NCBI GenBank assembly: GCA_030272155.1
Contig: CP126196.1
Location: 6,076,501 to 6,140,500, forward strand
Source: Tetradesmus obliquus
Lineage: Eukaryota; Chlorophyta; Chlorophyceae; Sphaeropleales; Scenedesmaceae
Direction of reading: 5' to 3'
DNA length: 64,000 bases
Position 1 is the stretch's first letter, and each line of letters starts with the position of its first letter. A program made the translations under genes and the position numbers. Of this stretch, positions 19,867 through 60,167 are shown piece after piece. The notes beneath the pieces are model-generated. The model was not told the DNA's origin and did not search any database. It saw nothing but the letters and a program-made list of their open reading frames with translations.

Positions 19867-22800
19867 CTACACAGTTCCTGCATGGACCTGATGGCTCATA
19901 CTGCTATAGATTGGCAAAGTCATTGCGCACAATGCCCTTCCACTTTTCTTGCTTTGCTTGTACAGAATCCTGATCATATACGACCGACCGACTAAGCAGG
20001 ATACGATACTTAGTGCAACCCCAGTTGGCAGCAGCAACAGCCATAACAAGACACTCTGGGACAAGCTGGCCACTTGTGCAGCGGTGGGATCTGTGATGGG
20101 GCTTCGCCTAAGAAGAAGCGGCGAATATCTGCTCCCAGCTTCCACAGACGCCACTACACCCGCTGCAGGCCTTGGATGGGCTTTTCTTGGAGGGTCCTGG
20201 CATACTGCTCTCCTGGACACCGTGAAATAAAATGCTCTGATTTGCATCGGCTGCAAGATCACTCGCGCGCTGAGTGGCATGGACCCCACAATGCGATTGC
20301 TGGTGAAGCTCTGAGGACCTGACGGCAGCAGCAACGGCGGCTGCCACGTTGTGAGTGTCTTGCTTATGTTGTACTGGGGCCTCAGTGCATCGCTGTCAGC
20401 CAGGACGCGCTCACCAAACAATGTAGCCTCTTGCACCTGCTTCACTTTCAAGTAAAGCAGCTCAGCCAATGAGGCAAGATGCACAGAGGCAGGCTGGGAC
20501 AAGCTAGGGTGCTCTCCTGCCTGGAACATGTGGCTTAAGCGCAGCAGCACAGTGCTGCAGCTCAACCATCGCACAGTCAGCAGGTGCACATTGTGTGGCA
20601 GATCCTTAGCGGCTGCTTGTCTGCTGGAGGTGGGCCTAAACTGCATGCCAGGTTTGAAGGCACTGAAGGCAAGCTGCATTGGGTCGTGCAAGATCTGCGG
20701 TGGCAATTGAGCCGCAGCAGTAGTAGCAGCAGCAACGGTAACACACATGAGTTGTAAAGAGCAGGACACACAAAGTCAGGGCAATGCTGTACTTGATTAA
20801 AGCATGTTCCCTAACCTGTCAACATACAACAGCTTGAGGTATTCCTGAGATGTCACATATGCTGCTGTAACCTGTACACACCCATCATTACACGTTCAAT
20901 CACAACCGTGCTGACCTGCCTAACCCCACCGTGGTGACCATGCATCTAACACCTTTGTTGTGTTGCCAAATGCAAGCTTCATCATCATTTAAATGTGTCT
21001 AAAGCATATTTTACGTCATGATCATCACCTGTTCATAATGTCGCTGCGTGATGTCGTGCTTGATGGTTGCATCTTGATCTGGTTTCCTGAATGACACAAC
21101 GTGAACACCAGCTGCAACGTGACGGTCAATCAGCGGCTGTGACATGCCTTTTCCATCATCTGCGGCACTTTTCTGGTGCAGGTTGATGTCGAGCTGCCCG
21201 TCCGCCATGGATACCGCGCCCTGGGCGCGGTCCACAGCCACACTCATGGTCGTGGCAGTGTCCTTCAGGTAGCATCCAGTTGTGATTGGGTAAATGTTGG
21301 CGGGAAGCCGGTGCGTTGCTGTAGGTCCGGCAGGAAGTTTGAAAGATGGGCGGTAGTCACGCCGGCGCTGCTGGTATTCCCTGCCGTTGGCATCAGTGAA
21401 CCACAGGCTCTCCGACTTGATGTTGCTGGTGTAGCGCACAAAAGCCTCCCAATCGCCACCTGCGTCTGGTGGTGGGCCGGCAGTCTACTCCACCTCCAAA
21501 TGGGACTGGCCGACCCATAGCCGCGTTGTCAGGGCGCCTGGCATATCATGAAACTTCTGGTGTACCTCCTGTAGCAAAGGACCCTGAGTGACAGATATTT
21601 CGCTTGGGGCTGGTGCGGACGGCTCTCCTGTAGCTGCAAATGTGTAAGCTCCAGAACTGCGGAAGTTGCCTTGATACTTGAGGAGTGTTGAGCTGTAGCT
21701 GATGGTGCCACCGGCGACACCCACACGGCTGATGCCAGCAGGACCCACTGTGAGCAGCAGCTTGTCGTTTGACAGCGTCAAACTGGAATTGCCCGCCACT
21801 GTGGCGACACGTGTTGACACACTGAGCTGCTGGTCTTTTCTTTGCTGCGCAGCCCGACTGGCGGTCTCTCCAGCATGCCTTGCAACCCTGTACACGGCAT
21901 GTCCAAGTGGCGGCGCTGACACAAGCAGTGCCAATTCCGCTGTTGGTGTGCTGCTGTCCTTTGCCATGTTTGTGGCTGACCAAACCAGTTGCGATCCTAC
22001 TGAAAGCGGCAGCAACTGGCTTTGGACAGGATGGCTGTCGGGCCCAGTCACCGAGTAATTTCCAGCATCGACAGGCACGCGTATGCCCCACGTGTAGGAC
22101 CATTGCAGCGGGTTGTACACAACTAGCAGGAAGCCGCCTGCTTTGGAAAGCAGCACAGAGCTGCTGCAGAGGCTGCTGTTGAGACTGAGGCACATGCTGA
22201 GCATGGGAGCTCGCCTGGTGGTGTTTGCTGCAGCTGACAAATTGAATGGCGCCTGTGCATCTGGCTTCCATTGAGGGAGCATTATGTTTTTGGACGAGCC
22301 TGCGCTTAAAGATGTCGCCAGCATATGTCTGTGAGGTCGGAACTGCTGCAGTGTTGCTGCTAACTTGGCCTGGGAACACCAGCTGCTGGAGACCCAACAA
22401 TAGTTTTGGCGCAGCTTTCACCATGCCAACATGAATCCACTGTTCGTAATCTTGTGTGACCTGCAAGACTTGGGTACCTGCAGCTCAAGCATCAAGCAGC
22501 ATTGTTGTCAGACAATTCACTCAGAGTGCACACTTGAATTTTATGAGACAATGAAGCTTGCCTTCTAGTTCCGCTACGTTGAATTGCAGATGCTTCTGCA
22601 CTCAACTGCTAACATGGTGGCAGCAATAATGTCGTGCAGGACATGTAAGCCCTGACCCACCAGTAATGCCGTCGTGGTGCAGGCTGGTCGCCAGCGCAAA
22701 CTCCAGCACCGCTGGATCGCAGTTTGGCGCCAGTGTGCCCGCAAGCTTCACAGTCTCTGATGTCTTCTGGTGGCCCTCATACTGCAGGCCTTTGGTTGTG

Positions 22801-25800
22801 GCCAGCTGGCGGCTTCCAGGTTGCAGCTCAGCCAGCACCTCCACTTGGTGAATGGCACGCAGCAGAGCCCAGCCACGCCGGACCTGCGCATGCATGGCGG
22901 CCGGCCGGATCAGAGCTTGATTGAGAAAACCAGCTGCACCACAATAAATGTTGCTGGCAACCAGCTGCACCCTCAGGTTGCACACAGTGCGACAAACATT
23001 TCAAAAAGTGATGGACAGCTAAATGCATCAGGGCCTCTCCTTGCATGCCATTTGTCACTTAGCCGAACGCCTATAGCGGATGAAACGGGTACAGCTGCTA
23101 TGAAGCCAGTCAGCAGCAGCGCAACATGTACAACCAGAGTACTGCATCATCAGCAGTGTTTCAGGCTTGCTTTGCTGCCTGCATGCGTGCGTTGCTTTGC
23201 ACCGCACCCACCTGCGCTTTCAGAGTTGGCCGACTAGTGAAGTAGCCTGTCCAAAAATCTGTGCCGGCTGTGTTACTGCAGTACGGGAAGAAGTCATCAG
23301 TCTTCAACGGAAGTGTCAGTCCCGGTGTTGCCAGCTTTGCTGCCAGGTAGCGTGATGGCGTGCTGTAAAAGGTGTTTACCCTTCCATCCTTGTTTACATA
23401 GTGAATCATCTGAGGACAGCAGCATAAGCAGCAGCAACAACAGCTGCAACATCAGCGACAGCAGCAGCAGCAGCAGCGCCAGTGCCAGCCGCAGGCAGAA
23501 ATCTTATCTGGACCCACGTACTGCAACCTTGGAGCTGACTTAACAATGAAGATGTACCACTGGCCCCTGTATGTTGCTCTGCACTTTGATAGCCCGTCTC
23601 TGTTGGCGTTCAGCGCTTACTGTGAAGTTGTGCACATGCAAAGGCTGCTGAGCAGCCGCACAGTAGATCACAACTACGCTGTATTGCAAAGGATTGCACG
23701 AGACATAGTCTACTGCCTGTGAAGTTTCACCCCCGCACCTTGTCTACATTCCTGAACCACATATGCGCATCACTGTGGGTGAAGTCCGACCCCATGAAAA
23801 GTACACATCATTGCCTGCAGCAACAGAACATGCAAGTGAACAATCAAGCCGTTGCTAAAGAGCCGGCTGGTGGTTCTTTAAAAAACTCCAAGACAATCAC
23901 TGCAGGTGCTCTGCAGCTTCCCAGCTGAGCAATGTGTGGCGTCTGCTTCATTGCGGGAGGGCATGTGCTGGCACAGCACACAGGGGCAGCTAGCACCTGA
24001 TGTACGTTTGGCTGGTCAGGTTGCCTTGTGATGCAACTATAAGTGAGAGGCGTGCTGTGCTAAGCCACGGCTGAGGTGCTGCCTTGCGGCATGTACGGCT
24101 TTTTTCCATGCTGATGTGTGTTGATACCACAATCAACCTTTTGCGCACCTCTCACAAATCCTTGCCATTCCTTTGCTTTCTGAACAAAAGTATCAACTAT
24201 TTCCCCAACATTGTAGCTGCCTGTCTCTGGGTCGTCTTTGATCGAATCTGCCATAGCTTTACCTGTGAGCAGTTCACACGACACAATTTAAATCATGCTG
24301 CAATTTCAGGGAAGCTTTCATTGGACCCAGACCAGCAGGAGGTACAATAGCCTACGCGCTTTGCTGTGTGACAGACAGTCCAGGCAGTCAGGTTCACCAT
24401 CTGGGCACGCCATGGCTCATGTAAAAGGTCTAGCAGCTTGAATGCTTGCAGCTTGTCAGCATATATACACCCGGGCACTCGGTCGAACCAGCACCAACTG
24501 CACCCACCATAGCCGTTGCGGCGCTCAAAAAACCAATTTGATCCTGGTGGGCCTGTGAGCAAGGAAACCCAGTATTCAATGTATTGCGGCTTCTGCCGGC
24601 ACGGTTGTAAGGCATGCATACGTGCTTCACCTGCCTCTAGCAGCAAGGCATGAAGTCAAACATCCTCGTTAAAGTCCAACAATGTTGATGCTGCATGCAC
24701 TAAAAAGTGTGCAGGTCATGCAGTCAACACAAGCATGCCCAGCCTCCAATCAGCCGCAATGTCCACCCAGCACTCACCATAGTTTCCTGTGCAAACAGTT
24801 TCAAAGCATGCAGCAGCATTCAGGTGGCGCAACCGGTTAGTGCTTGATAGTTCAAGGTGACAAAGTTGTGTTGTGATCAGTGCAATGTGACAGTACACAT
24901 AGTAAGAAATGGAGCAACGATAGCCACTGCCATATCTGTTGTGGAGCATGCATCGCATGCTGTAAACCCCTGGCCCCATGCTATGTGTTCTGTGCGTATC
25001 AAAGCAACTTGACGCAGCTGCCCAGTATCTGCTGCTGTCTGCCATTTTGCGACCCTAAGACCGTTAAGTGTGACCTGATTCAGCTAAACGCTGAAACGAC
25101 ATCCACAGCATACCTGTTGGGTACTGGGATGTGAACATGTCTGTCTCACTCCCGTATGACTCGCTGCCACGCCACACAAGCTCTAGGCTGTGGTTTTGTT
25201 TCCGCTGCATCATATCCGCTTCATCAGCTCTGCAGCAAACACAAGTAGCAGCCACCAACATGAGTAACAGCCTGCTCTTGCCCTGCACTCAGCCATGCGG
25301 CTGCCTGTCCAGCTTGGCACAGAGCTCTGGCATGCTTCTGTGCCATGCGTGATAAGAATATCACCGGTTGTTGCCTGCTGGCATGGGCACGACTCCGGCA
25401 ATTCTTGCCCAGGCCGTGACGTCATTGAGTTGGTCAAGACTAAAGTCTGCAGGGTCAGTCGCCTGCTGAAGATGGTACCCTTCAATTGCTTGTTCGGAAC
25501 GGCGTGAGTTCAGGCGGTTTTTGATTGAAGCAGTTGCAACCATGCTGGTGCAGCGTGCTGCTTTGGAGTATCTGACCTAAGACCCACCTGCCGAAAAACA
25601 TTGCATCAAACCCACCCATGGACTTGAGAAGAGGCTCTGTGCGGCTGTGGCCAAACCCATCCAGCTGCAGCAATGACAACACGTTGAACGGGAGTGTAAG
25701 GCGGCAAGGGCAAGCACATGCATCATTGTAATGAATTTGCATAAAATTCCTCATATGTTTCTACAGCTGTAGCTCAGAATGTGTCACAGCAGCATGGCAC

Positions 25801-27025
25801 AAAGGTTGTTCACTCAAAAAATTTCTGGTCTCAGATCATGCACTTGTCCTGTTGTGGCTTATACCATCTCAGACGGTGCCAGGAGTTGCATGTAATTACC
25901 CTATTCCTAGAAGCTTGGATGATGTGTGTGGCGCACCCGCCACACCTCGCCGCCTGGGCCGCGGTCATGAAGTGTCCACACATTGATCCGGCCATGCAAT
26001 AAATACGTGCATCACACAATCATCTACAAGCTACACACTGTGCATGCAGTAACTCACTTGCCACGCTATACGGGGTGCAAGGCCAAACTCGTCCTGTAGA
26101 AAACGCATTCCAATGCTCATCTGGTCCACCATGCCGCTGTAGTGGCTGTTGGCCTCATCGTGATGCACGATGCCCCCGCCAGTGAATTCAAAGCGACCCT
26201 GCTTCACCAGCTGCCGCACAACTGCCTTGGTGTCCTCATGCAGCTCCTGCCACCACTTCACAAAGAAAGTAAGGTCGGCATATACAAAGGTCCTGTCTGG
26301 GTTGTCCACCAGGCTACTGACTGCTGTGTCTAGTATGGCTTCCACTCCGCCTGTGGCAGCAGCGTTTCAGCCGCAGAAAACATTGAATGTGTTGCATAAG
26401 GTTCTTATGATAAGGAAATTCCATGCAAGGACAGTCAGGGTGAAACATGGCTTGCAATAATTGCAGTATATGGGGCAGCAACTGTGCTTGACACTTGTCC
26501 TCTGGCTTGCCATGCAAGCATAACTTGTTGGACATCAATGTTCGTCACCAGAGTAAACTGCTTTAGGCTCAGAACTTGTTGGGGACCAGGATGTATGCAC
26601 TGACAGTTGTTGCTTTGCTCTATCTGCAGCCAGCTTGACTTGCGCACACACCATGGCAAGTTGCGCATGTTGCACTGCACATGTGTTGGGATCTCGTACC
26701 CGCAAAACATCTGATGTAGGCGACCTTCTAACACATGTATCTCGCTGTATGAGCCCGGGAATGCTTCTGTTCAGTGCAAGTTACGTATCACTCGTGCGCC
26801 AACTGCTGAGCACTCACCAATCACATGCCCATCGAGGTCCAGTGTTCGGTGGTACTGTGCGTAGCTATGCAACCATCCCGGGTCGTTATGAGTGTGGCTG
26901 AAGATGTGTACATTCAGCTTTGCTTCCACGCGAGAAGCTGTGGTGTTGTACAAGGCGCTCCTGCATGCTACAGCCTGAGGTCCTAACAACAGTGTTAGTG
27001 CTGCCACTAACAGCAGAGCATGCAT
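19867..27025 (-). CDS. Class II alpha-mannosidase (GH38), 13 exons, apparent lesions
   Basis: GH38 enzymes trim mannose from N-glycans in the Golgi or vacuole. Exons, in transcript order: 26818-27025, 26058-26350, 25588-25664, 25114-25229, 24778-24786, 24508-24552, 24149-24262, 23739-23814, 23212-23409, 22661-22883, 21029-22477, 20415-20694, 19867-20318; about 1,180 codons. An N-terminal signal peptide (ALLLVAALTLLLGPQAV) is followed by HTHNDPGW (zinc ligands His and Asp), WQLDGFGHS (nucleophile Asp), WTGYFTSRP, LHHDGITGT (zinc ligand His), NGREYQQRR and a C-terminal LPHNVHLLT domain. A late hydrophobic stretch (VLLWLLLLPTGVALSIV) could be a membrane anchor if the last exon is read through to its TAG. 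Three defects appear: exon 8 is one base short before MGSDF, exon 11 is one base long at a CCC near 22380, and TAG (21485-21487) stands where the family has Trp after EVE. It may be a recent pseudogene or carry assembly errors. Confidence 0.85.
24778..24786 (-). other. 9-nt microexon of the mannosidase gene
   Basis: On the minus strand the nine bases GAAACTATG sit between an acceptor TTTGCACAG and a donor GTGAGTGC. They join the phase-1 exon ending PT(G) to the phase-1 exon starting PPGSNWFF, adding the residues needed to form GNYGPPG. GH38 enzymes have a conserved hydrophobic/Tyr-Pro-Pro segment at this point, and skipping the microexon would delete it. Confidence 0.7.
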
Positions 27026-29317: not shown

Positions 29318-31182
<1,865 letters not shown>

Positions 31183-31416: not shown

Positions 31417-31849
31417 AAATGACGAATTCTAGGCAAAGCCAGGATACCGAAGTACGCTGGTCATGCACAGCTGCGCACCTTCAAGCAATGCTGAGCCAGA
31501 AGACCCCCGCCAAAGTCTCCTGGCACTCCAAGTGGGGCTGTTCATGTAGGCACGGCTGCCCGGCACCATAGCATCATGCGAAGTTCTCACCTGTAGGCAC
31601 AGAGAAGGTTACAGGGTCGTTAGGGGTCCATGGGCGGGACCACCTGTGACCCCTGCCCCCGGCCTTCAAGTAGTCCTGGGTAGATCGTGGTGTAGGTTCC
31701 AGTCATGACACTCGCGGGGAGATCGCAATAGCAGCCAAAAACAAAGCATTAGGCATTGTGTATCACAGATATCACATAGCAGTGTTGTATATGGTGTGCA
31801 AGGCATGCAGGCAGCAGTGGGCGGACAGAGTTGTTTGTTACAGAAGGTG
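31417..31849 (+). repeat. Dispersed repeat R1, long copy 1
   Basis: 433 bp starting AAATGACGAATTCTAG and ending GTTACAGAAGGTG. It is almost identical to 34787-35224: I count about three substitutions plus a 5-bp insertion in the other copy. Flanks are unrelated. No inverted ends or coding domain were recognised. Confidence 0.9.
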
Positions 31850-32440: not shown

Positions 32441-33466
32441 CTAGAGGAAAGCAAGTTGAGTTAAGTCGTGCTATTTTGTTATGTGTTGGCGTGGTGCAGG
32501 TGTGCAGCAGGAGCAGCCTCTGCTGCACATGTGGGTTGTGGTTCTCGCTAGCTATCGCGAAAATTGTGCGACTGCATCACTGAGATCAAGTCATGTTGTG
32601 CAGGTTGTGCTGGCCGCTGCTGCGCAGCTAGTTGTACAGCACATAGTACATGCTGCAAGCGAGTGGTTGCATGGGATAGCCATGTCATATGGCTGTGCTG
32701 TTGCTGCTGCTACTGCCTTCGCGCCTCAGGCAGGCAGAGTGCTGCGCTGTACATCACGCTATATGCAGCCTGACAACAAATGCACATGCAAACTCTGCGA
32801 CTGACAAGGTGCTGGCATATCCATGCTGTACCTACTACTGCTGCTGCTCGTGCTGCTACTGCTTCCACGCCTGCTGCCGATGCATCGTCGCCAATTTGAA
32901 GCTTGATACCGCATAATCGAATAACAGATTAAACATTCAACATTATACAGCCCTCGTACTGAAACGTCCCAGCTGTGCATTGTCCGTAGCTGTACGAGAT
33001 TCTGACAGTCACTGCCTGTCTGGACATCGCCCTGCCGGCGTGGACAGACTTGAAATTTATCGAATAGTGCGTTTGGTAAAATTTCAGACAATTCGGGGCA
33101 ACTACAAGGCACTCAACAGCAGGCCGCCTTTAGGATGGCGGTTTTACATTGGACTCAGCGCCTGAGGGCGTGCCTGCCTGCACGCCCCGAAGCACGTTGT
33201 GAATGTGGAACTTAATGTAAGTAGCTTTGAAACTGGAAACACATGTGTTCAACTGCCGTGCAGGTGTCCAGATTTAAAGCAAATTGTTGCCGGCCCGTGT
33301 AGGCGTGCATGCCTGCACGCCCTGATGCAAGATCCGACAAGCACACTGCAATGTACTGTGTCATGAAGCATTCATGGTGACAGATCAGAGCACCTGGCAG
33401 TAGCCCGATGGATAGCGCATTTTTACCGGCCCGGAGCTATGCATAAGACGCCAAAGTCTCAACTTG
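32441..33466 (+). repeat. Dispersed ~1-kb repeat R2, copy A
   Basis: Begins CTAGAGGAAAGCAAGTTGAG and ends near CCAAAGTCTCAACTTG. Related copies in the same orientation are at 38237-39281 and 54343-55318. Shared landmarks in order are the CAAGTTGAG start, a GCTGGCATATCCATGCT block, an AGGCCGCCTTTA..ATGGCGGTTTTACATTGGA block, a GCGTGCATGCCTGCACGCC block and the terminal CTCAACTTG. The outermost bases form a short inverted pair. No long open frame is preserved, so this is probably a non-autonomous element of unknown type. Confidence 0.75.
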
Positions 33467-34047
33467 TAAAAAGGTGTGCGCTTCGCAGCGCAGCTGGACA
33501 GATGCCGGATCAGAATAAAGAGGCAATGGACGGCGACCTGCACAGAAAACGGCTCCCTCACGCCAACTGGGGATACCCAGCTGCTGCTGTTGCTGGCCCG
33601 ACCGTTGCTGCTGCTGCTGCTGTGGCTGCAACCAACGCTGCTATGCATAAGACACCAAAGTCTCAACTTGCAAAAAGGTGTGCGCTTCGCAGCGCAGCTG
33701 GACAGATGCCGGATCAGAATAAAGAGGCAATGGACGGCGACCTGCACAGAAAACGGCTCCCTCACGCCAACTGGGGATACCCAGCTGCTGCTGTTGCTGG
33801 CCCGACTGTTGCTGCTGCTGCTGCTGTGGCTGCAACCAACGCTGCTATGCATAAGACACCAGAGTCTTAACTTGCAAGAAGGTGTGCGCTTCGCAGCGCA
33901 GCTGGACAGATGCCGGATCAGAATAAAGAGGCAATGGACGGCGACCTGCACAGAAAACGGCTCCGTCACGCCAACTGGGGATACCCAGCTGCTGCTGTTG
34001 CTGGCCCGACCGTTGCTGCTGCTGCTGCTGTGGCTGCAACCAACGCT
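33436..34047 (+). repeat. 204-bp minisatellite, three tandem units
   Basis: Units start at 33436, 33640 and 33844, each beginning GCTATGCATAAGACNCC. The unit equals 68 codons, so frames stay open through all three copies on both strands. The plus frame gives a repeated 68-residue unit containing GQMPDQNKEAMDGDLHRKR and an Ala/Val-rich half. The first bases of the unit are the terminal bases of R2 copy A, so the array probably arose by amplifying the R2 end plus flanking sequence. Confidence 0.9.
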
Positions 34048-34394
34048 GCCTCAAACAATGGCTTGATAACAAATATACACGAAAATATAAAACGTAAACG
34101 GTGCTTTCGGGCAGTCCCAAGCACACTGCACCCCCGCCCCCCTCACCTTAATCGCAGTGGTGCTGATGTCCGCATCTGGGCGTGCTATTGTCTGGCATCC
34201 ATATCAGTCACTGCTTTGCACTACCACCGTCCCCAAACGTCAGGCCCCCGTCCACCGTGCCTTATCAGTCAGCACGGTTCCGCCTGGAGAGCAGTGGGCG
34301 GGATCTCATCGAGGCAAGGCGGGCCACATGCTAGCACGGTGGTTTAAGCCGCGTAGGAGTGGTTGTCCGCCAAAGATGAGTCCTAGCCCACAGT
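34048..34394. other. Spacer without recognised gene
   Basis: Unique sequence between the minisatellite and the truncated LINE copy. No gene seen. Confidence 0.4.
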
Positions 34395-34786: not shown

Positions 34787-35224
34787 AAATGACGAATTCT
34801 AGACAAAGCCAGGATACCGAAGTACGCTGGTCATGCACAGCTGCGCACCTTCAAGCAATGCTGAGCCAGAAGACCCCCGCCAAAGTCTCCTGGCACTCCA
34901 AGTGGGGCTGTTCATGTAGGCACGGCTGCCCGGCACCATAGCATCATGCGAAGTTCTCACCTGTAGGCACAGAGAAGGTTACAGGGCAGGGTCGTCAGGG
35001 GTCCATGGGCGGGACCACCTGTGACCCCTGCCCCCGGCCTTCAAGTAGTCCTGGGTAGATCGTGGTGTAGGTTCCAGTCATGACACTCGCGGGGAGATCG
35101 CAATAGCAGCCAAAAACAAAGCATTAGGCATTGTGTATCACAGGTATCACATAGCAGTGTTGTATATGGTGTGCAAGGCATGCAGGCAGCAGTGGGCGGA
35201 CAGAGTTGTTTGTTACAGAAGGTG
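34787..35224 (+). repeat. Dispersed repeat R1, long copy 2
   Basis: 438 bp, more than 99% identical by eye to 31417-31849 apart from one 5-bp insertion (CAGGG at about 34987). It starts about 60 bp after the truncated LINE tail. Confidence 0.9.
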
Positions 35225-43900: not shown

Positions 43901-44241
43901 GCCCAGGCAAGGGCGTCTGCCAAGTAGTCCACCATCGCCCCAAGACCAAGATGGGTGGGGTGCCTGAACACCAAGAATGTGACATTGCTGCAGTCACTTG
44001 GGTGCTGGTGCTCGAATATGATCCTCTGCATCTCTGCAGTGCCAGGAAGTTGTGCTATGCCTTGCTGCTCTACTTTAGATGGCAGCCACGCGCGAGGCAG
44101 CTGCTTTGCAGAGCAGGGCTCCAGCTGCACTGATGCATTCGCAAGCAGGTAGTGCGTCCTCCAGGTGGGGCGCTGTTGCTGTGCTTTGCAGCAGCACACT
44201 GCCAGCGAGAATCCCAGGAAGAGATACGCCAAAAGAGTCAT
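40961..44241 (-). CDS. Fucosyltransferase-like protein (GT23-like), five exons
   Basis: Exons in transcript order: 43850-44241, 42765-42981, 42282-42404, 41767-42060 and 40961-41161 (stop TGA). All junction phases agree and give 408 residues. The N-terminus (LLAYLFLGFSLAVCCC) is a signal peptide or signal anchor. The first exon has DCSNVTFLVFRHPTHLGLGA and a conserved EGRVLLLDYQSPWTR, typical of the donor-fold entrance of alpha-1,6-fucosyltransferases. Exon 4 holds VSVHIRRGDK (His267 to Lys273), matching the GDP-fucose-binding HxRRxDK signature of FUT8/NodZ-type enzymes, followed by a Glu as in that family. The last exon has WVGTLGSMWSVL, like the conserved VGTxSS segment. Core fucosylation of N-glycans is plausible, but linkage is not provable here. 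The exon-5 acceptor is weak. Confidence 0.8.
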
Positions 44242-46549: not shown

Positions 46550-49500
46550 TCAGATGCACTCTGCTGCTGCCGGGTCCAAGTCGTAGAAGGCAGGCTCACA
46601 GGGAGTCCAGAAAGCGAAGGCCTGCATGTTCTGTGCCACCAGCCAGGGCACTTGCAGCGTGACGTTCTTGTAGACAGGGTTTTGCCTCAGAACACAGTCT
46701 GGGTGAGGAATGCGCTTGCGCCAAGTCTGCAGGAAGATGCATTTTCCAATGGTCATTTGCTCATGCATTGGCGGGTGCTCTATTAGTTTTTCGAAAATGG
46801 TACTGTCACATTTGTAGTGCTGCCTGGTAGTGTTCACAAAAGCCAGCGACTTACAGCAACTCAACCTTAGTCAAGTGAAGGCGGAGTGCATAAAAGTAAT
46901 CAATATCTGGTTCTGCAGCGGCAGCAGCCAAAGCGACAGGCATACATATCAGCAACAAAGCAAATCTGTATCCAATTGTAGGACTAAGGAGCAGCCACAT
47001 TGATTGAAAGCACATCATACCACTATACTTGTCCTTGTGTGGCGGCTTCTGGTTGCAATCTCAAAATCTGTGTCGTCCTGCAGGTCACAGTCAGCATGTC
47101 GCGAGGACGAAACCATCGTATGCAAGTCTGCGCCTGCGCCCTACCCGCTCCCGCTTGCGCCTATCCATGGCCTCGGCCCCCGGCCAAGCACACTGCACAC
47201 AACCGTATGCGCACCTCGCGGCCGGGAATCAAGGGCGACACACTGCGCTGGGCAGTCAGATGCCTGTGGACGTCACTGATGTTTGGGAACTTTGCAATGC
47301 GAGAAACTCCAATCTCGGCCACTCCGATGTACTTCAGGTACAGCGCGGGTGCAAACAGTGTGTAGCCCAGGTGCCAGCCGCCCGGCTCTGTTGGATGGGA
47401 GCCTGCAGATCGGTAGTTCCGCAGCTCCAAGGGTTCACCGGGGTTTTGGGGGTCGCCTTTTCGCACGGTGCCCAAGGTCCACACCTGCATCAAGTGGTTG
47501 CATCCAACAACGAATGCGCAGGTGCTGGGCAGGTAATGAAAACACCTTCAGATCAGGCGCAACTCGCACGAGATGCTCGCCTTGTGCGTATGATTGCAGT
47601 TTACTATTCTTGTCAAGTCAGGTGCAGCTCAGAACAGGGCGGGTGACACAGTTCGGTAACTCCGCGCACTTCATCCAAGGAACCGTTGAACACTTGGAAT
47701 GCAACTTTGAAACACATTTACAAGCAAGACATGCATGCTGATGTTTCTTTCAGGCTACACACCTTCAACAAATGCAGTAATGCTAGTGCAGTGCATAGGC
47801 TGTATTTGACCTGCCGCATGAGCCACACTGCTTTTACACACTGTTGTAGTTCAAGTGTGCTGAAAGGTGTGGCCCCACATGAAACGACTACACCTAGTCT
47901 CTGCAAGCAGTGCTGCCTTGTGCTGCCACAGCTGCACTAACTAAAGTGCGGCGACGTGCACGACACCTGGCAAGCAAATGTCGCATTTCTCCCGCACACC
48001 GCCACACACAAACCTGCACGCATCCACTTCCTGAGCCAGCATCACGCACCGTTGGGAAGCGTAAGCTGTAGGGGTAGCCGCCACTGGGGGGCCAATCTGA
48101 CCTGAACATGTAGCGGTAGTCGGCATGCCAGTAGACTGCAAACCGAAGCGGCCATGTAATGCAGCCGTCCATTGTCCAGGTGTGGCAGTGACGGGCAGAT
48201 GGCGCACGATGTATCAGTGCATGTGAGGACCAGGGGGGGCCATTGCAGTGCAGTCCACACTGGTGTGAAACGGGCAATACTTATTGCCACTGCAATTGGA
48301 GCAAGCTGTTGCCAACAAACCGGGTTTGGTGTGGCATTGGATGGTGCCAGCCCCCCAGCGTTTTTTTTAATATTCATCACTGCACTATGCGGCCACTCAA
48401 CCATTGGCATCAACTCGTTCACATGAACACTGATCATTGCAAAAAAGCACAGCATGTGCTAGGAAGCGGCTGTTACCACAGGCAGCCCACAGGGCATGAG
48501 CACAACGTGTCTGCGGCAGCTTTGTGCCTGCATGCTCACCTATGTTGCTGTGGATGGGCTCCTGCAGGCCCGGCTTCAGCTCGCAGTGCTTCAGATGCAG
48601 CAGAAAGTCCTCATCCGCCATCTCATCCATGTCTCCATACACCACAAGGTCGCTGTCCGCCCAGCCCGCAAACTGCTTCGGCAGCTCCCGGTAAATCGCT
48701 TGGTGGTGCCGCAACTCGTTATCCCATACAACTCCCGTGGCGGTGGTAGTCGTGCCGGTCCGCCAGGAGAACTGCTTGCGCCATGTTGTGTCGTCCAGCA
48801 CATGGTGCGTTATATTCTCCAAAAAATTTTGGAAGTGGTGCTTCACGGACTCGTAGATCAGCGGCTTGGGCGTGCCTGGTAATGTACGCATCAAAAAGGA
48901 TAGGCGGCAAACCACAACAAGCACTTATATGATGAAACTGTGAAGCTGCAGGAAACCCCTTGCGACAGGAGCGGGGTGTGCCCCAGAGCTGGTGTCGCGG
49001 CAGCAAGCTGGCAGCATCAGGAGCAGCACCAAAGTTTTTAGCATCAGGTGCAGCAGCAGCAGGAGCAGTCATGCAAGTCATGCAAACGCCAAAGCCACCC
49101 TGCAATCATCCTTTATGCATGCACATGCTGCAATGACGCAAAACAGAACTGCAGGCTATGCCGCAGCAGTGCAGGGTGCGCAGCCCGAACCACCTTCATA
49201 ACAACAGGCCGTTTGCAACGCCAACTCTGGCAACAAAAGTTGCTTGAAAAACGCTTGCATGTCGATATGACTGCTAGTGCGGTCACCGGTGTAGGCCAGC
49301 CGGCTGCTTTCGCTGATGAAAAAATTGTCCACCAGGTCCTTGTATGTGTGCAGCCGGAACACCAGCAGGTACGACTCAAAGGAGAACCTGCTGGCCCACA
49401 CAATCTTGGCTGGCTGCTGGCGCTTGGTTCCGCTGAGGATGCTGCTGAACTTGGGTTTGCTGCACTCCAAAGTTAATGTGTGCGGGCGCTGACCGTTGAT

Positions 49501-50671
49501 TGGCGCAATCCTGCTGACATATTCTGTCACAAAAGTCGAGGCATCAAACGTGAAACTTGCCACCTGCGGGCGCAGTAGCGGAGCCACCATCATGGCCTGA
49601 AAGAACGAGAAAGCGCCTGTCTGAAACATGAGGGAGGGCACTTGTGGTGGGCCTGTTTGGTACTGTTGATGCTCTCATGGCTCAAAGCTTGCTCTGCAGG
49701 TATCATGTCGTGTCACTGGCTTCACTGTCACGCCCAAACAGGCCCATTTATATATATCAGACGGAGAAGACATAGACATTAATCAACTATCATACAAACA
49801 GTAGCCCTTCGTGCCATCAGGTGCAATGGAAAACGAACATCTGCAGCAATCTCAGGAAGATAATACAGGAAGGGTTTTGGTGGTCCACCAACATTCAGCG
49901 TCACTTCAAGAATGTTGAAATAGTTCAGCGGGTTAGGTATTTTCGAAACATTTGTTCATGGATATACCATCGTTGTGTTGGTTAAATGTTGCTTGCGCGC
50001 CCCTCAGATACCTATATTGAAGCCAAATATGTGCCCAAGCAACCAAAGTGTTACAGCAGGGCTGGGCTGCTGGAGCTGTTACTTGTTCTGTCCACAGCGC
50101 ATCTGCCATGCAACGGGGAAACACATAATGCAAGGCTGTCACGTCACGTCCGCTGCAGCAGCAAGAGCCAACTGACTGGGTTGAAGTGCTGCGACTTTCG
50201 CCAATGATTTGATGCTGCAACCTTTCAGAGACCATTGCACCTTCAGCTGTATACTGGCATGCTAGGCCGTGGCATCAAAGCGACGCCTGCCAGCCACTCA
50301 CCTGTCTGGAGAGCTGGCCCGCGTCGAGTGATGCGCCATCTGCAGCACCAGGCTGCAAGAACGGCGCAATGGACACCAGATGTGCAAACTGCTTGGTGGT
50401 GTACGGGTGCTTGTGTTCTGGGCAGCCTTGCACGTTCAGTGCATGCCGCATGGGCGCCCTATGATGTCCGGGGGACGCTGAGAAATGCAGATGCAAGCAA
50501 GTAGGGTTGAGGCTGTGCTCATTGGGGCGGTCTTAATGAAACGCTAGACAAAGTTTCATCACCTTCAAGTACACAGTCATCTCCCACATCTAAGTGCAAA
50601 CCACACATGGACGGTGTGGTTGCGAGCCACATCCACTCCTGCTGATGCATTGTATCATCAGCAGCTGCTAG

Positions 50672-51532: not shown

Positions 51533-53375
51533 GGAAATCAAACACTGCAATACAATGATTCTTGGGAAAATGTGTGTAAAATAACCTTGGCTGGTATAAG
51601 CAGCTGCAGAGCGCGCATTTTCGCGATGCGCCACCTGGGTGGCGTGTGCAATACATACACTGTCTGCGACCACGAATTCAGCGAAAAGCGCATGGTTCCG
51701 GAATCATATGCCACTTACGTCAATACCATAAACAGAGCGGAACTTGCGGCGATTAGAGTCGCGGTGAAAATTGGGTTGAAGAACTGCGAAAACACCGGAG
51801 ACACCGAAGTGCACATAGCAACAGATAGCCTAGCATCCATCTTCCAACTGCGCAATGCAACGACCCGGCCTCAAGACATGCGGGAGCGCAGACACATAAC
51901 GCTGATTCAAGATATAGTAGCGGGATAACATACTCCATATACACAGTCCACTTTTGAGGGGTGAAAAGCCACGTTGGCATTGTCGAAAACGAAATAGCCG
52001 ATGCAACGGCAGTAGCGGTCTCCAAAGGGCTGGACCAAGCTGACGGCGTGGCTAACGACGAATACAAAGATCCTAGCAACAACAGGCATGACATGTACTG
52101 GCTATACACCGAGGCGGAGGCGCCAACCAACAAAACAACGGAGTCCATTGCGGCCATGGCCGCTATGGTGGATGCGGAGACCAACAACCCACCAAACACG
52201 ATCCTTGTGCCGGAACCAAACATGAAAGAGTCTGTAAAGGCCCGCATCCACAGCGTGTGCAAGCTGGGACAATCCAACACCAATACAGTGTATCACGCAA
52301 GTTGGGATAGAATGGCTGAGAAAATTGACCACCGGTACAGTCACCTGTTCATGGCTAGCACAACTGTAGCCAGCCACCTCAGGAAGCTCGTGTTGCAGTA
52401 TGGATATGGGTTACTTCCGACCTACAAACTTCTTAAACGGTACAAAAAGCCCGACACTCACCTTTGCCCCTTGTGCGGACAGGAGGACGGAGGCCGGGCC
52501 ACCACGCACTGAGCGGGTGCGAAAAACTGCTGAAGAAAGCCACATTGCGGCATAACAACGCCGGCTCACTTATCGTGGAAGCCATATACATGGGAGAAAA
52601 AGGACACCAGCTCATAGCTGCGGACGTGGGCCTCAACAAGCGAAGGAGAGCTGAAGGCAGGGAAACCTTGGATGTGAAGCGAAGCATCCCAGCATTGGCG
52701 CTACCAGCGGACATACCCAATAATAGTTGAAACAAAACTACAAAAACAGCGCATACCAGACGCGTTTCTCTACAATTACAATCACAAAGCCCGTCGTCGC
52801 GAATACACTGTAGTGGAAATCAAGTACTGCAGGGACACCAAGCCTGAGGACCGAGAAGCGAGAGCCATCCAGCAGCACATGAACCTAGTAGAAAACCCCC
52901 AGAAATATGACCCCAGGGCGAACGTGAAGCACTGCGTTCTCCTGCTAGGACTAGCAAGCGTGATCTACAAGGACGTAGGCAAGCAGTTATCACAAAATCT
53001 CGGTTTTGAAGGGACACTCTCTAGACAGTCTGCTCCGACAGCTTCAGTTTAAGTCAGTAAAAGCAGTGGGAGACATGTGGAAACACAGGCGAGCTCTGTT
53101 GCAGCACAAACTTGGCACTAAGCATAAGTAGGTTACAGGACTGAAACGTCCCTGCCATGGGTTTACTCCACACCACAGAACCACAGTCAAAAGGAAGAAG
53201 TGACAAAACATAATGGCCCCAGGGGTACCTTGCCGAGCCCTCGGGATCGGTGAGGATGGTAGGAGGTGTGAAGGCGCATGGGATATCCTCATCGTCACAC
53301 ACACCCCCTCCCTTAACTTACGCGGGTGGCGAGTAATAACACACCACGCGTAGCTCATTCACTCATTCATTCATT
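51533..53375 (+). mobile_element. Decayed non-LTR retroelement: RNase H, zinc knuckle, RLE
   Basis: Only the 3' part of a retroelement is present. RNase H residues can be read as Asp (codon 51557, in YNDSW), Glu (51740, in NRAELAAI) and Asp (51824, in ATDSLASI), then VKSHVGIVENEIADA near 51963. A zinc knuckle CPLCGQEDGG...HALSGC lies at 52465-52525. Next is a PD-(D/E)XK nuclease: IPDAF near 52753 and VVEIKYC near 52810. The frame is broken at about 51925, by a TGA at about 51958, and at about 52490 and 52715. The 3' UTR ends in an ATTC tandem tail (53355-53375). RNase H plus a restriction-like endonuclease in this order is known from algal Dualen/RandI-type elements and some other RLE clades. 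The exact clade is inference. Confidence 0.75.
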
Positions 53376-54342
53376 GCTCCTTAAAATTACTGTGATCAAT
53401 TCGCAGCATACGGCTGCAGCGGCTGCACCATGAAATGTCCAAGGGGTGATGTACATCTTATAATGAGACACACCTGCTACTACTGGTTGCGTAACCACGT
53501 CATAGATGCTGGTGATTTTGTAATGCTGGTGCTATCCCATGCAGCATGGGTGGGGCAGTTGCTGTGCGCCAGCAGCAGCAGCAGCAGCAGCGGCTGCAGC
53601 ACTGTACAGCTGGGAGTTGGCCTGCGGGCCTCCAAAATCAGGCAACAAAGGCTGCTTGCAAGACGTGCTGTCGGTGAAGAAGCCCTCAGCAGGCAGCCAC
53701 ACAGAGTAGTTGCCATGTTAGCGTGCTGCCTTGGGACACAACTGACCTGCATCTCATGAGCGCGCAGAGCGCTTCAAAAGCTCAAGATGTGTGGTTGTTT
53801 CAACACACGGCAAAAAACTACAGTGCACTGTTAAGTGACCGGAACATCGTGCATTGCATGGGGTGCAGCTTGTTGAGGGGCAAAGCTAGGACTGCTATCA
53901 GGGTTGTTGGGACTGCCAAATGATTGCCAAGCTGAGCTGCTTTGCACACAATGTTACGTTGATGTTTGTGAATGTTTTGTACTTTGTATGGCATCTGTAT
54001 GGTGCGGCCATGGGTCTTTCGTTTATGCTGCATGGGGCAATGCTTTTAAGCCGTAATTACCGTGCATTTACACACTGCCCTACAAGGGCAGTGCCATTTG
54101 TACCACCGCTTCAGCTGGTCGAATCTTCTCTCATATAAATCACTGGGCAATCGAATCACTTTGAGCCATGCTCAGGCCACAGAAGAGCTGACACAGAGAA
54201 CTGTGTTACCCCACCACACACTGGGCGCAATGCTACTGACACCAGCAGAAGCACTGCAAGCAGGGCTATGTTTGCTGGTGCTGCAGCAGCATCCCTGCCC
54301 TCCTAGCACACATATATGCAGATGATGCACTTCAAATCAAAC
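53376..54342. other. Stretch without a recognised gene
   Basis: Contains a short CAG run near 53570-53592. No domain or repeat family was recognised. Confidence 0.4.
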
Positions 54343-55318: not shown

Positions 55319-55568
55319 ACTCAGTATGCCGTGTGCGCATAGCAAGCTCACGGTGCTGTGCTGTCAGCACCTTGCTGCTGCACAGTATCGTTCCTGCTGT
55401 TGCAGCTGCTTGCAGGACTCCAGGACGGTGTTCAACTGCAGGCTGCAGCTGCGTTCAACATGCTGTTCTTCAGACATGTTTTTTTTTAATATTTGCCTAC
55501 ATTGGAAGTCCCTCCAACTCGCCTGCAATATGTAGTGTAACTTAGGTCAGCGCGATTTCTAAGGCACT

Positions 55569-57725
55569 TTGTGTTTTTCTTGTGGTGCAATTGCTGCAGT
55601 TTGCTGCGGTGGCAGCTTATTCGTCTCTTGGCATTCTGCTTACCTGTGGTGTTCTGCTTACCTGTCAGCAGTGTTCAAAAAGGGTGACCCCAGTGACCTG
55701 GATAACTACCGTGGTATAGCTGTTGGCTCAGTCATGGGCAAAATGTTCAGTATGTTGATCGAGAAGCGTTTGGCAGCCTACTGTGAAGAGCGTGGTTACA
55801 GGGCGTGGGGGCAGGCTGGTTTTAGGGATAGGCACAGGACGTGTGACCATGTTTTTGTGCTGAAGCACCTTGTGGATCGCAGCCGTTTGGGTCACGGTCG
55901 CTTGTTTGCATGCTTTGTGGATTTCAGGAAGGCGTATGACCTGGTTCGACGCGACCTGCTTATGCGGTGCCTGGCAGACATTGGCTTGCGAGGCAATGTG
56001 CTAGCATCTATCGTTTCTATGTACTGGAATGCGCCTATGATCACTAAGTTGTCAGGTAGAGTTGGGCAGCCCTTTGACAGCACTCGTGGTGTGAAGCAAG
56101 GCGACCCGCTATCGCCTCTGCTGTTTGGCATATTCATCGATCGAGTGGAGCAATGGCTAGCCGACCGCTGTGGTGCGTGTGGCACGGCTCTGGGCAGCAG
56201 AATGGTGAGGCTGCTGCTGTATGCTGATGACCTGGTGCTGCTAGCAGAAACAGCCGGCAAACTACAGCAGCTGCTGGATGCCCTGCAATCATTTTGTAGT
56301 GAGTATGACATGCAGGTTAATGTGGGCAAGACAGAAGTAGTTGTGTTTGACAGGAAGCGCTACAGCGGTGCAGCAGTGTGGCAGTACCAGGGGCAGCAGG
56401 TTCCGGTGTCACAGCAGTTCAGGTACTTGGGCGTCCAGTTCCATTCCACTCAGGGTGTGTCTGTTTGCACTGATGCTCTGGCTGCGGCTGGTAGTAGAGC
56501 GATGTGGGCTATGCTGGCCAGATGCAAGGAGCATGGCATTCGCAGTTTGTCAATGCAGGTGCAGCTGTTCAACTCTCTTGTGTCTCCAATTCTGTGCTAC
56601 TGTTCCGAAGTGTGGGGTCCAGCCCTGCTCAGCCAGGCGGGCTCGGGTGCTGCTTTGGTCAGCAAGCTGCAGAACAATGTCATCAGCAGGGTGCAGTTCA
56701 CGTTTCTGCGTACACTTGCAGGACGCGTCCGCAAGTCCACTGCTCGCTTGCTTCTGTCAAGAGAATTTGGGGCCCAGCCTTTGGTCAGTTTGTGGCTTCG
56801 TGCGGCTGTGAGCATGTGGAATAGGGTTGTGGATATGGATGCGTCCTCCCTTTTGGCTTGTGCTATGCGTGACAACTTACGGTTGTCCACTGCTTCCAGC
56901 AGCGGCGCAGTGTGGTGCACACAGTTGCGACGTGTACTTGAATACGTGCATTCCCACTCACAGCAGCTGGGAGATGCCGTGCAACGGCTGCAAAACTTCC
57001 AGTCTCTGGATCTGAAAACCATAGCGCGTGCTTTTGATGGCGTTTTGTATCAGCAGTGGCAGGGGTGCCCTGTCAACCCGCGTGATGCTGCTAGTGGTCA
57101 TGGTGTCTACAATACCTATGAGCGGTGGTTTGCGGCATGCTCTTCTGCTGACATGCTGTCTGTGAGCCCAGCTTTATGGTGCCCAGATTACGTCTCTCAA
57201 ACTGCTGGGATCAACAGAGAGCATCTGGGGTCTTTGACCCGTTTCCGGTTGGGTGCTCATGATTTACGTGTCTGCAGTGGCAGGTGGCAGCGACCACCTA
57301 TGCCGCGAAGTGACAGGGTGTGCCTACGTCCTGGCTGCCAGTCTGAGGTTGTTGAGGATGAGTTTCATATGGTCTTTGAGTGTCCTTTCTATGCACCAGT
57401 CCGCGAGCGATTTGCTATGTTGTTCGAACCCTTCGGGGACTCGTCACAAACATGGGCTACTATTGCTGGTTGCCACCCAGCAGGCGATGACATGATCACT
57501 TTTATGAAGCAGGCACCTGCTTTGGTGGCTGCTTTTGTGCACTGCTGCTATCTGATGCGGTGTCACCCGGACACTGATCCTGAGGTCCTTCTTTCCTGTC
57601 AGGCTATTGCTCAAGTTATTGATGATGCTGATGAGTTTTTTTCTGCGTTTTCTTCTGACGGTTTGGATGATGATGAGTTGTTCTTCGATGTTCCCTCCCC
57701 CTATGAGCCTCTCGTTGGCTCCTGA
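55569..57725 (+). CDS. Non-LTR retrotransposon reverse transcriptase (C-terminal part)
   Basis: A single open frame of up to 718 codons ending in TGA. Real element sequence probably begins about residue 31-35, just before FKKGDPSDLDNYRGI, which is the start of RT block 1; the residues before it are flanking DNA. Further RT blocks are ACFVDFRKAYDLVRRDLL (catalytic Asp), STRGVKQGDPLSPLLF, the catalytic YADD at residues 218-221, VNVGKTEVVVF and FRYLGVQF (thumb side). A C-terminal zinc knuckle, C-x4-C-x9-H-x4-C at residues 585-605 (CLRPGCQ to FHMVFEC), is typical of LINE ORF2 proteins. No frameshift or stop interrupts it, so the insertion is fairly recent, but without the endonuclease half it cannot be autonomous. 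It resembles L1-like algal LINEs. Confidence 0.9.
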   Translation: MCFSCGAIAAVCCGGSLFVSWHSAYLWCSAYLSAVFKKGDPSDLDNYRGIAVGSVMGKMFSMLIEKRLAAYCEERGYRAWGQAGFRDRHRTCDHVFVLKHLVDRSRLGHGRLFACFVDFRKAYDLVRRDLLMRCLADIGLRGNVLASIVSMYWNAPMITKLSGRVGQPFDSTRGVKQGDPLSPLLFGIFIDRVEQWLADRCGACGTALGSRMVRLLLYADDLVLLAETAGKLQQLLDALQSFCSEYDMQVNVGKTEVVVFDRKRYSGAAVWQYQGQQVPVSQQFRYLGVQFHSTQGVSVCTDALAAAGSRAMWAMLARCKEHGIRSLSMQVQLFNSLVSPILCYCSEVWGPALLSQAGSGAALVSKLQNNVISRVQFTFLRTLAGRVRKSTARLLLSREFGAQPLVSLWLRAAVSMWNRVVDMDASSLLACAMRDNLRLSTASSSGAVWCTQLRRVLEYVHSHSQQLGDAVQRLQNFQSLDLKTIARAFDGVLYQQWQGCPVNPRDAASGHGVYNTYERWFAACSSADMLSVSPALWCPDYVSQTAGINREHLGSLTRFRLGAHDLRVCSGRWQRPPMPRSDRVCLRPGCQSEVVEDEFHMVFECPFYAPVRERFAMLFEPFGDSSQTWATIAGCHPAGDDMITFMKQAPALVAAFVHCCYLMRCHPDTDPEVLLSCQAIAQVIDDADEFFSAFSSDGLDDDELFFDVPSPYEPLVGS

Positions 57726-57775
57726 CTGGGGTTCCCACTCCTCGTTGAGTGGAGCATGTAATGTAATGTAATGTA
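55660..57775 (+). mobile_element. 5'-truncated LINE with AATGT tail
   Basis: The element starts inside the reverse-transcriptase region and ends in a short trailer plus (AATGT)n at 57758-57775. A second, much shorter copy is at 34395-34726. Truncation has removed the endonuclease and any ORF1. Confidence 0.85.
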
Positions 57776-58049
57776 TGCATTCCCTGCATATTTTTCTTTC
57801 GTCAAACATTCCCGCACGATATGGCATGTGTCGCACCAGGCATATCCAAGTCAAAAGGGCGGGATCATTTATGTACAGCCGCCATGGCCGCAACTAAACA
57901 TTTGTTTCTCGCTCAGCATCTCTGTGCCGGATTGTCACAATGCGACCCTGCTAAAAAGATAGACTGAAATGGCCAGCCTCTGAATGATATTATATATCTG
58001 GCCCTAGGCCTGCTGAACGGCTGCTGCATACTTTGGAGCTGCACCAGCT
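57776..58049. other. Short intergenic spacer
   Basis: Likely 3' UTR of the minus-strand gene that ends at 58050, invaded on its far side by the LINE tail. Confidence 0.4.
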
Positions 58050-60167
58050 TCACACCCATGAGTGTGCCCGCCAGCCCTTCTGCCTCAGCTGCAAGAACAG
58101 CTTATAGGCATCTGCCAGCTTCTTGTTGGGGTCCTCGCCCCCTGCCCACCAGGGCATCATGGGCGCAAAGGTCACATGGTACTCCATGAAGAACTCGTCC
58201 ACCAGGGCAGCTGCTGTTGCATCACCCGAGAGGCTTGAGAGGATGGCATTCTCTGCAACAACATTGTCGATGTCTAGCTTGAAGGCCACAAAGTCTGCCG
58301 GCTGTGCAATGGACTTGAGCATGCGCACCTGTGCAACACAGCAGCAGCAGTAGAAGCCGACAGCACATCCTGACCCACATGGTATTGCTTCTGAGGGATA
58401 TTTGCATCAGGCCGTGCTGGAAACACAGACGTCGGGTAAGCAGTAGGGCTGCTGGTGGCTGCAGCGGCCAGTCTGCACTCTGCTGGCTCTTGACAGCACA
58501 CTAGCTGATGAACTCAACCTGCCACGCTCCTAGGCAGTGACACCGCCATGCATGCAATTGGTTGACAGCAAATGACTGACTGAAACTGTTGCTGCCACAG
58601 GCAAAACTGCTGCCGTCATGGTGTCACTGCACCGAGCCAAACACGGTGTGTGGGCAGCATGCACAGTCAAGACCGTTTGTGCCAGAACCAGGCCAACCTG
58701 CCGCTCACAAGTTGAAGCAGGCTGACTGCTGGGCACACAAGCAGCCAGCCACTGTAGCACGGCTGCACTTACTGCGTGCGAGGCGTCGCTGTAGTCGGTG
58801 ATAGCGGGTATGTTGAAGTACTGGTACCGGTGGAGCAGCTCCTTGGGCAGCTCAGCAAAGATGCCGCTGGGTGGGCTGACGGGCTTGGCCTCCCACAGCA
58901 GCAGCCGGTCCATGTCGATGCCGCGCCGTGCATAGCTCCTGAGAGTGGCGGCAGCAGACATAGCATTAGGGATTAGCGCAACTCACGCAAGGGTGACTAT
59001 CATAAACCGATTTTTCAAAACATGCAAGTGTCAGGTATTGTTGGCACCCAACCATGGCAAAAAAAGCACACAATGCATGCACAGCAAGCGCGCAGATGCC
59101 GGCTGGCTCCTGCAAGGGCTTCTTTGCCCCGCGCCGTGTAATCATTGCCACGTCTCCCAGCAACTTGTCAAGCTTCAGAGCAGTCATCCTGGCAGCAGTG
59201 ATGGCAAAGGGCAGCACAGCTGGCAAAGAGCAGAAGCTGCTGTATCAGGGACGCTGTACATGCAGCACACATATTAACCACAGCACATAGCACATGCATG
59301 CATGTTGCGGGGCACCAGTCTTCACAATGCTGCGCTGGCACAGTTGTTTTGAGTGGAAACGTTCCTGCATGCAGGAATAGGTAGCTGCATTGTGTTGTGC
59401 TGAGCCCACCTGTAGAACCACCCCTGACCGACCGACTCAGGCGCCGCCTCCCAGCGCGTCGCGCCCAGGTCCATGTATATCGCCTGGCAGCTCCTGTTTA
59501 TGCATGCCTCCTTGCCGCTGGGGCCAGCAGCAGCACGCAAGGCCAGCATGTCCTTCTGGTTCTCGAGCAGCAAGTAGGTCATGTCGGCGATGCTTGCACC
59601 CATGCCACATAGTGCCTGTGGGTGCCGCAAACCGTGTGCTAATGGCTCGATCCATGTGGTTATCTGCTCTGGCTGCTGTTGGCCAAGGCACGTGCGGGTG
59701 GTGACAAAGCGCGAGAACACTGCTGGGTCAAACTGCACATCGGGCTTGCCTGCCGTGTCGGCTGCTATAGTGTCGAGCCAGATCTTGGTCCACTGCTGCT
59801 GCTGTGGTGTTTTTACAACTTCACAGAAGCTCTCTTGCCAGGCTGTCACGTTGCCCAGCCAAGCCAACTCAAAGTCAGATGATATGTATGTTGTCTGTGT
59901 TGTGCATGGTGCCTGCTCCTGCTGCTGCTGCTGCTGCTGCTGCAGCTGCTGCTCCTGCCTTTTGGCTGCAGCACGCCCAGCTGTTATAAATGGTGCATTG
60001 GCTGCTGCTTTATCTACGCTGTGCTGCAAGCCTGCCTGTATCACACAGCGGCTCCTGGCACCAAAATCTGCATACAGCACTGTCACCAAGGTAGCAATAC
60101 ACAGAGCCAATGCTACTTGGTACCACAATAGTAGGTTGCCGCGGCCTTGCTGCGTACTTGTTTGCAT
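58050..60167 (-). CDS. Type II membrane protein, FkbM-type methyltransferase-like
   Basis: Three exons, 59410-60167, 58773-58938 and 58050-58328 (stop TGA), join with matching phases to give 400 residues. The ATG at 60167 is chosen because it gives a short N-terminus followed by one signal-anchor helix (YQVALALCIATLVTVLYADF). A Gln-rich stem follows. The lumenal part has AIYMDLGATRWEAAPESV, then a junction giving WFYRSYARRGIDMDRLLLWEA, then ITDYSDASHAV and FVAFKLDIDN. The order DLG, later a D-R-L-x-W-E-A strand and an F-V-x-x-K-x-D-I-D strand resembles SAM-dependent FkbM-type methyltransferases (D-x-G and K-x-D-I/V-E motifs). The substrate is unknown; a sugar or glycoprotein acceptor in the Golgi would fit the membrane layout. 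No lesion is seen. Confidence 0.7.

Follow-up and report, generated by a model that had tools for sequence, protein, structure and literature searches.

Linked glycan genes near a chromosome end of Tetradesmus obliquus and their counterparts in other islands of the genome

Glycan-related genes in the window and its right flank

The 64,000-nucleotide stretch of Tetradesmus obliquus DNA analysed here (C6:6076501-6140500; hereafter, the window) harbors, between 20.2 and 60.2 kb, five consecutive non-transposon genes encoding a GH38 alpha-mannosidase, GT69/CAP59-like, GT23/FUT8-like and GT17 glycosyltransferases, and a member of a methyltransferase-like family that we refer to as MT (Table 1). Between these genes, only transposon pieces and repeats were recognised, and no tRNA genes were detected in the window with ARAGORN. 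The genome comprises 104.66 Mb in 17 contigs, and TTTAGGG repeats were found at most of the contig ends inspected. C6 spans 6,224,436 bases, the final 150 of which are TTTAGGG-type repeats, and the right edge of the window lies 84 kb from this end; C5, C6 and C16, the contigs most concerned here, measure 6.7, 6.2 and 4.4 Mb, respectively.

For gene modelling, a small splice-aware finder was trained on exons of the window itself. Between 20.2 and 60.2 kb it modelled four genes with several exons each and, for GT69, the first exon alone; comparison with paralogs located the second GT69 exon, supported a first exon for GT17 and added the last exon of GT23. In the GH38 model, two extra exons (19192-19246 and 19617-19732) were removed by hand as unlikely. 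The limits of the gene neighborhood proposed in an initial annotation, made from the sequence alone, coincide with the low end of the GH38 gene's last open frame (19867) and with the ATG of the last gene's model (60167).

To assign families, predicted products were compared with the Pfam, NCBIfam and PHROGs profile libraries and with PDB sequences. Pfam matches above cut-off were obtained for the GH38 product (N-terminal catalytic domain, E 1.2e-52, 179.5 bits, cut-off 25; GH38C, E 1e-10), the GT17 product (Glyco_transf_17, E 2.6e-13, 50.2 bits, cut-off 26) and the GT69 product, with its exons joined by hand (CAP59_mtransfer, E 2.4e-8, 34.4 bits, cut-off 28.8). The two matches of the GT23 product to FUT8_N_cat (E 1.8e-6 and 2.4e-6; 27.4 and 27.0 bits) fall just below the cut-off of 27.6, and its eight PDB matches up to E 10 (E 0.14-0.26) are weak but specific, all being alpha-1,6-fucosyltransferases. 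PDB contained nothing matching the GT17 product at E values up to 10. The MT protein is without a match in Pfam, NCBIfam, PHROGs and PDB; by eye, it presents a hydrophobic N-terminal anchor and motifs that resemble those of S-adenosylmethionine-dependent methyltransferases (FkbM-like). Two motif patterns applied to 80 bacterial loci, with a view to building a profile for this family, retrieved no FkbM-like frames. Of the families initially named, GH38, GT69/CAP59 and GT17 are thus borne out, GT23 is probable with scores just under its cut-off, and the methyltransferase lacks any profile match.

The GH38 gene is convergent with the putative wall-type glycoprotein gene, whose exon structure and 3' end are uncertain and whose Ser-Pro repeat bears out the presence of the SP-rich gene reported beside the cluster; this gene yielded two weak Ephrin_rec_like matches in Pfam (E 0.0062 and 0.0048). 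In the GT69 gene, positions 29522-29690 constitute a CAG run of 56.3 copies (87% matches) that is read as polyglutamine. Many such CAG/CTG runs occur in the window, one of them with 40.7 copies at 19618-19739.

The cluster extends to the right of the window, where the next 10 kb and the sequence directly adjoining them hold a TPT-type transporter, a further copy of the window's long interspersed nuclear element (LINE) and a GT2-like gene, the transporter and the GT2-like gene both lying less than 15 kb away. These two genes are each present twice, at a spacing of 18.58 kb and with identical scores (C6:6141661-6150742 and 6160242-6169324); this repeat may represent either recent tandem duplication or an artefact of the assembly. 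The GT2-like family matches a galactosyl transferase in the phage library PHROGs (E 6.6e-8) and has no Pfam match.

Table 1. Features of the window (positions counted from its first letter) and of the islands (contig positions in kb)
Feature	Position	Strand	Basis and remarks
Putative wall-type glycoprotein gene	13288..19335	+	Signal-like start, Cys-rich pieces, Ser-Pro repeat at 15029-15276
GH38 alpha-mannosidase	20206..27025	-	12-exon model, one 5-base exon doubtful
GT69/CAP59-like glycosyltransferase	29318..31182	+	N-terminal membrane anchor; at least two exons, exon join set by hand
Tandem repeat	33436..34049	none	204 bp x 3.0, 98% matches
GT23/FUT8-like fucosyltransferase	40961..44241	-	HIRRGDK motif; last exon by comparison with C16 copy
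GT17 glycosyltransferase	46550..50451	-	Glyco_transf_17 match and gene model
Retroelement piece, RNase H-like	51533..53049	+	RNase_H E 0.014, below cut-off, for 51533-52509
Non-long-terminal-repeat retrotransposon, reverse transcriptase frame	55563..57722	+	720 amino acids; RVT_1 E 9e-32
MT-family gene	58050..60167	-	N-terminal membrane anchor; four-exon model, second exon (59072-59239) doubtful
C5 island, first part	6346-6425		MT, TPT (6.9e-9), GNAT-DegT fusion (DegT 3.4e-76, GNAT 6.1e-16)
C5 island, continued in order	6346-6425		GT69, GT2-like, anchored protein with weak methyltransferase match (0.0075)
C5 island, final part	6346-6425		4,6-dehydratase (3.7e-58), weak Nucleotid_trans (0.031), unmatched gene, GT17
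C6 island	5465-5510		GNT-I (1.6e-68), TPT (1.2e-22), GT17, RXYLT1_C piece (7.5e-8), CAP59; within 46 kb
C16 island, in order	171-494		GT2-like (two), GT23, MT, GT23, GT2-like, MT, TPT, GT2-like, GH38, GH38

Recurrence and linkage of the gene families

Searches of the alga's own genome with the window families, followed by retrieval and reading of 260 kb around paralogs, revealed further islands in which these families are again linked, upholding the earlier proposal of an unusual physical association of glycan genes. To our knowledge, clusters of glycan-synthesis genes are common in bacteria and rare in eukaryotes. The islands map to C5, C6 (5.47-5.53, 5.79-5.80 and 6.10-6.17 Mb) and C16, all within 0.8 Mb of a chromosome end. 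Paralogs of MT were identified on C5, C3, C16 (two) and at C6:4686k, with amino-acid identities of 78% to the C5 copy, 70% to the C3 copy and 60% to C16, the latter over a partial alignment. On C5, MT and GT69 are 11 kb apart and GT17 follows 63 kb further on, and on C16 two MT, two GT23 and two GH38 genes lie inside 306 kb. The trio of MT, TPT and GT2-like, picked after it had been seen, is contained within 17 kb in the window's island and within 28 kb on C5, and on C16 its members are located at 337k, 355k and 323k, respectively. The C5 transporter is absent from the matches of the window's transporter, indicating that the same kind of gene, rather than a close copy, fills this place on C5.

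We evaluated linkage on the five window families with the window itself excluded. At E <=0.001, the searches returned 23 loci, or 21 once same-family copies within 100 kb were merged, these family counts being lower bounds. Among the 21 loci, five pairs of different families are separated by no more than 100 kb, C5 contributing three and C6 and C16 one each, against an expectation of 0.34 if loci are placed evenly (P = 0.0005), which rises to 0.77 if their distance to the chromosome end is kept (P = 0.002). Three pairs fall within 50 kb (P = 0.0017 and 0.006 under the same two nulls). Adding three weak matches (MT, GT69 and GT23; E 0.0017-0.003) gave 23 merged loci and still five pairs (P = 0.00025 and 0.0025). 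Omission of five loci identified only by the CAP59 profile left 16 loci with four pairs within 100 kb (expected 0.18, P = 0.0005, and 0.61, P = 0.006) and two within 50 kb (P = 0.0045 and 0.025). The GT2-like family, searched later, has seven merged loci beyond those already seen, and five of these lie within 30 kb of a five-family locus.

The loci are also strongly biased towards chromosome ends, with 11 of 21 lying no more than 0.5 Mb from an end, a zone that makes up 16.2% of the genome, as opposed to 6 of 38 loci for mitochondrial carriers, although the binomial P of 0.00014 overstates this bias because linked loci are not independent. Such a distribution is what would be expected if glycan families expanded near chromosome ends and came to be adjacent by chance, with no selection for linkage. 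The higher expectation obtained when end distance is kept agrees with this explanation, as does the 18.58-kb repeat, which suggests recent local growth. The five observed pairs, however, still exceed the end-distance null, and the islands include one of the two GNT-I loci as well as a WecD-WecE-like fusion. Mitochondrial carriers, with 150 of 205 candidates scored, are multi-copy and present neither distal bias nor island membership: none of 43 genes falls in the islands even when these are widened by 100 kb, to 1.47% of the genome, and their use as the null for the 16-locus test yields P = 0.00015. We therefore regard chance adjacency through distal family growth as unlikely, if still the most serious alternative.

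The initial annotation had suggested that GH38, core fucosylation and GT17 reactions can act in sequence on one N-glycan; on this reading, the genes would form a functional N-glycan cluster, linked for co-regulation. The GT23 gene fits the core alpha-1,6-fucose of Scenedesmus described in the N-glycan passages of PMC12507850, and GNT-I and a close GT17 paralog occur together in the C6 island. Comparison with PDB sequences, however, gave 385 bits for jack bean alpha-mannosidase (6b9p, the best match) and 196 for the lysosomal enzyme, versus 157 for Golgi mannosidase II, which rules out the latter as the identity of the GH38 product and undercuts the proposed sequence of reactions. The product resembles vacuolar or lysosomal enzymes more than Golgi mannosidase II, and its N-terminus is, by eye, similar to a cleavable signal peptide. 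Moreover, GT69, MT and GT2-like proteins are not known to catalyse any N-glycan step, and GNT-I is missing from the part of the window cluster that was read. Ordered action of the products on a single N-glycan thus seems improbable to us.

Bacterial-type genes, paralog divergence and origin of the islands

The C5 island contains, at C5:6354534-6358136, a five-exon model in which a WecD-like acetyltransferase is fused to a WecE aminotransferase. In NCBIfam, the fusion scores as WecE (481.8 bits, cut-off 375), WecD is the nearest family for its front part (80.4 bits, below the cut-off of 219), and the 4,6-dehydratase of the same island is nearest to dTDP-glucose 4,6-dehydratase (344 bits, below the cut-off of 365.1). 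In an Algoriphagus contig, the WecD-like and WecE-like counterparts are separate neighboring genes in the same order as in the fusion. These data would fit joint import of the island genes from a bacterial or large-virus source, an origin also suggested for some segments of the picoalgal outlier chromosome discussed below. WecE-like genes of bacterial origin are known from dinoflagellates and excavates, according to the part of PMC2064935 that concerns them. Yet GH38, GT17, GT23 and GNT-I are eukaryotic-type families, and the gene models are spliced. In viral contigs, the MT pattern was found in 167 stretches, none encoding a relative, and the GT2-like query gave no match, both in a search best suited to close relatives. 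Import fits single genes at most, and we consider it highly improbable for the islands as a whole.

The closest paralog pairs differ at 34-58% of fourfold sites while retaining 64-87% amino-acid identity (78% over 382 amino acids for GT17 and its copy at C6:5475k), and the genes therefore look constrained. Nearest partners are located on C5 for MT, on C5 and C7 for GT69, on C16 for GT23 and GH38, and on C6 for GT17, at fourfold-site distances of 0.45 for GT23, 0.55 for GT17, 0.67 for the nearest MT and 1.0-1.1 for GT69.

Together, these results lead us to favor the view that the window probably holds most of one among several glycan-gene islands that were multiplied near chromosome ends and kept for varying surface sugars. 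Because of their anchors, recognised by eye, and their gene families, the Golgi would be the expected site of action of the products, with secreted and wall glycoproteins as their substrates. The islands gather predicted Golgi-type glycosyltransferases, TPT-type (nucleotide-sugar-type) transporters, the MT family and transposons, with a secreted-type glycosidase in two of them and nucleotide-sugar-making enzymes added on C5. Most likely, the genes were multiplied and carried from island to island by segmental duplication and exchange near chromosome ends, perhaps aided by repeats such as the LINE shared by the window and C16 islands, and they would have been retained for the variation that they bring to the sugars of secreted and wall glycoproteins. 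Selection for linkage itself would be part of this scenario.

Several observations weigh against this view. The five-family test comprises only 21 loci that are not independent, and three of its five pairs belong to one island. A nine-family test (39 loci, from which the two GT2-like loci known beforehand on C5 and C16 were omitted) gave 24 pairs against 1.24 expected with even placement and 2.57 with end distance kept, a result that is biased because TPT, GNT-I and GT2-like were chosen after their sighting in islands; the five-family test is free of that selection bias. GT2-like copies on C13 and C4 lie away from the five families, none of three loci of another glycan family, exostosin GT47, falls in the islands, and no glycan neighbor was recognised by eye, without a profile run, around the C3 MT copy (30 kb) or the C7 GT69 copy (20 kb). 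The C5 island also includes, at its margin, a phosphate acetyltransferase (E 2.7e-30), and further several unmatched frames and a large Cys-rich, extracellular-type gene with a REJ domain (C5:6397704-6398648; E 2.6e-18). Finally, a single block duplication is ruled out as the origin of the islands, as partners reside on different chromosomes and differ in age, a pattern that points to repeated movement rather than one duplication.

Relation to outlier chromosomes and minor features

The closest known system to these islands is the small outlier chromosome (SOC) of Ostreococcus, Micromonas and Bathycoccus, as portrayed in the pertinent sections of PMC5082852 and PMC3491373. The former describes, for the Ostreococcus tauri SOC, glycosyltransferases, methyltransferases, epimerase/dehydratases, sugar transporters and a few pyridoxal phosphate (PLP) proteins, with transferases and triose-phosphate transporters that are duplicated and shifted in a modular fashion. 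The likeness in content is striking and lies in the mixture of glycosyltransferases, methyltransferases, dehydratases and sugar transporters, in PLP proteins (in two SOC species), transposons and duplicated blocks, and in putative foreign genes, as far as these sections go. Glycosyltransferases, transporters and transposons are found across the islands jointly, whereas the dehydratase and the PLP enzyme are confined to C5 and MT is a putative methyltransferase. In contrast to the SOC, there are several islands on the ordinary chromosomes C5, C6 and C16 rather than a single small low-GC chromosome, and they include the N-glycan-type families GH38, GNT-I, GT17 and GT23. The sections of PMC5082852 considered here tie the SOC to virus resistance, a tie reported for that system only. 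According to the corresponding section of PMC3491373, no outlier chromosome was detected in Chlamydomonas, Volvox or Chlorella, the last of which presents scattered low-GC regions. Perhaps the islands are, like the SOC, lower in GC: the 20-60 kb interval of the window has 52.2% and the C16 block 53.7%, versus 58.5% in one non-island block on C3, with C7 (54.8%) and the C5 block (52.5 to 59.2% across its 10-kb segments) as counter-cases.

Given that MT, TPT and GT2-like occur together on C6, C5 and C16, it is conceivable, though we hold it as a tentative idea, that core green algae possess a SOC-like glycan compartment dispersed as module-swapping islands at chromosome ends. If so, each lineage would acquire surface glycans of its own through such shuffling, which would also explain N-glycan diversity between close strains and may serve escape from viruses or grazers. 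Close algal strains do differ greatly in their N-glycans, according to PMC7383745. Should the islands hold in relatives, they would provide a genetic address for fast surface-glycan change and a link to the picoalgal outlier chromosome. The titles and abstract openings listed in searches of the open-licence literature revealed no report of glycan-gene islands at chromosome ends of core green algae. For Scenedesmus-like algae, the N-glycan passages of PMC12507850 describe core fucose in alpha-1,6 linkage and predict genes for GT23 and GnT I; they do not treat gene order, and the word 'cluster' occurs 0 times in the main text.

A second comparison is with bacterial polysaccharide loci. WecD, WecE and dTDP-glucose 4,6-dehydratase serve the synthesis of enterobacterial common antigen, and the C5 island has an aminotransferase, an acetyltransferase part and a 4,6-dehydratase, with transferases nearby. 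Unlike those of bacterial loci, the C5 genes are spliced, extend over 60 kb and are interrupted by other genes. None of these three functions was found in the window. If borne out in relatives, the islands would also offer candidates for the genes behind core alpha-1,6-fucosylation and behind an amino sugar of bacterial type in a green alga.

Of the repeats in the window, the LINE frame is 97.9% identical over 478 amino acids to a copy in the C16 island, and the element has probably been active recently. A repeated 58-codon stretch is present twice, at 31674-31847 and 35049-35222, 3.4 kb apart.

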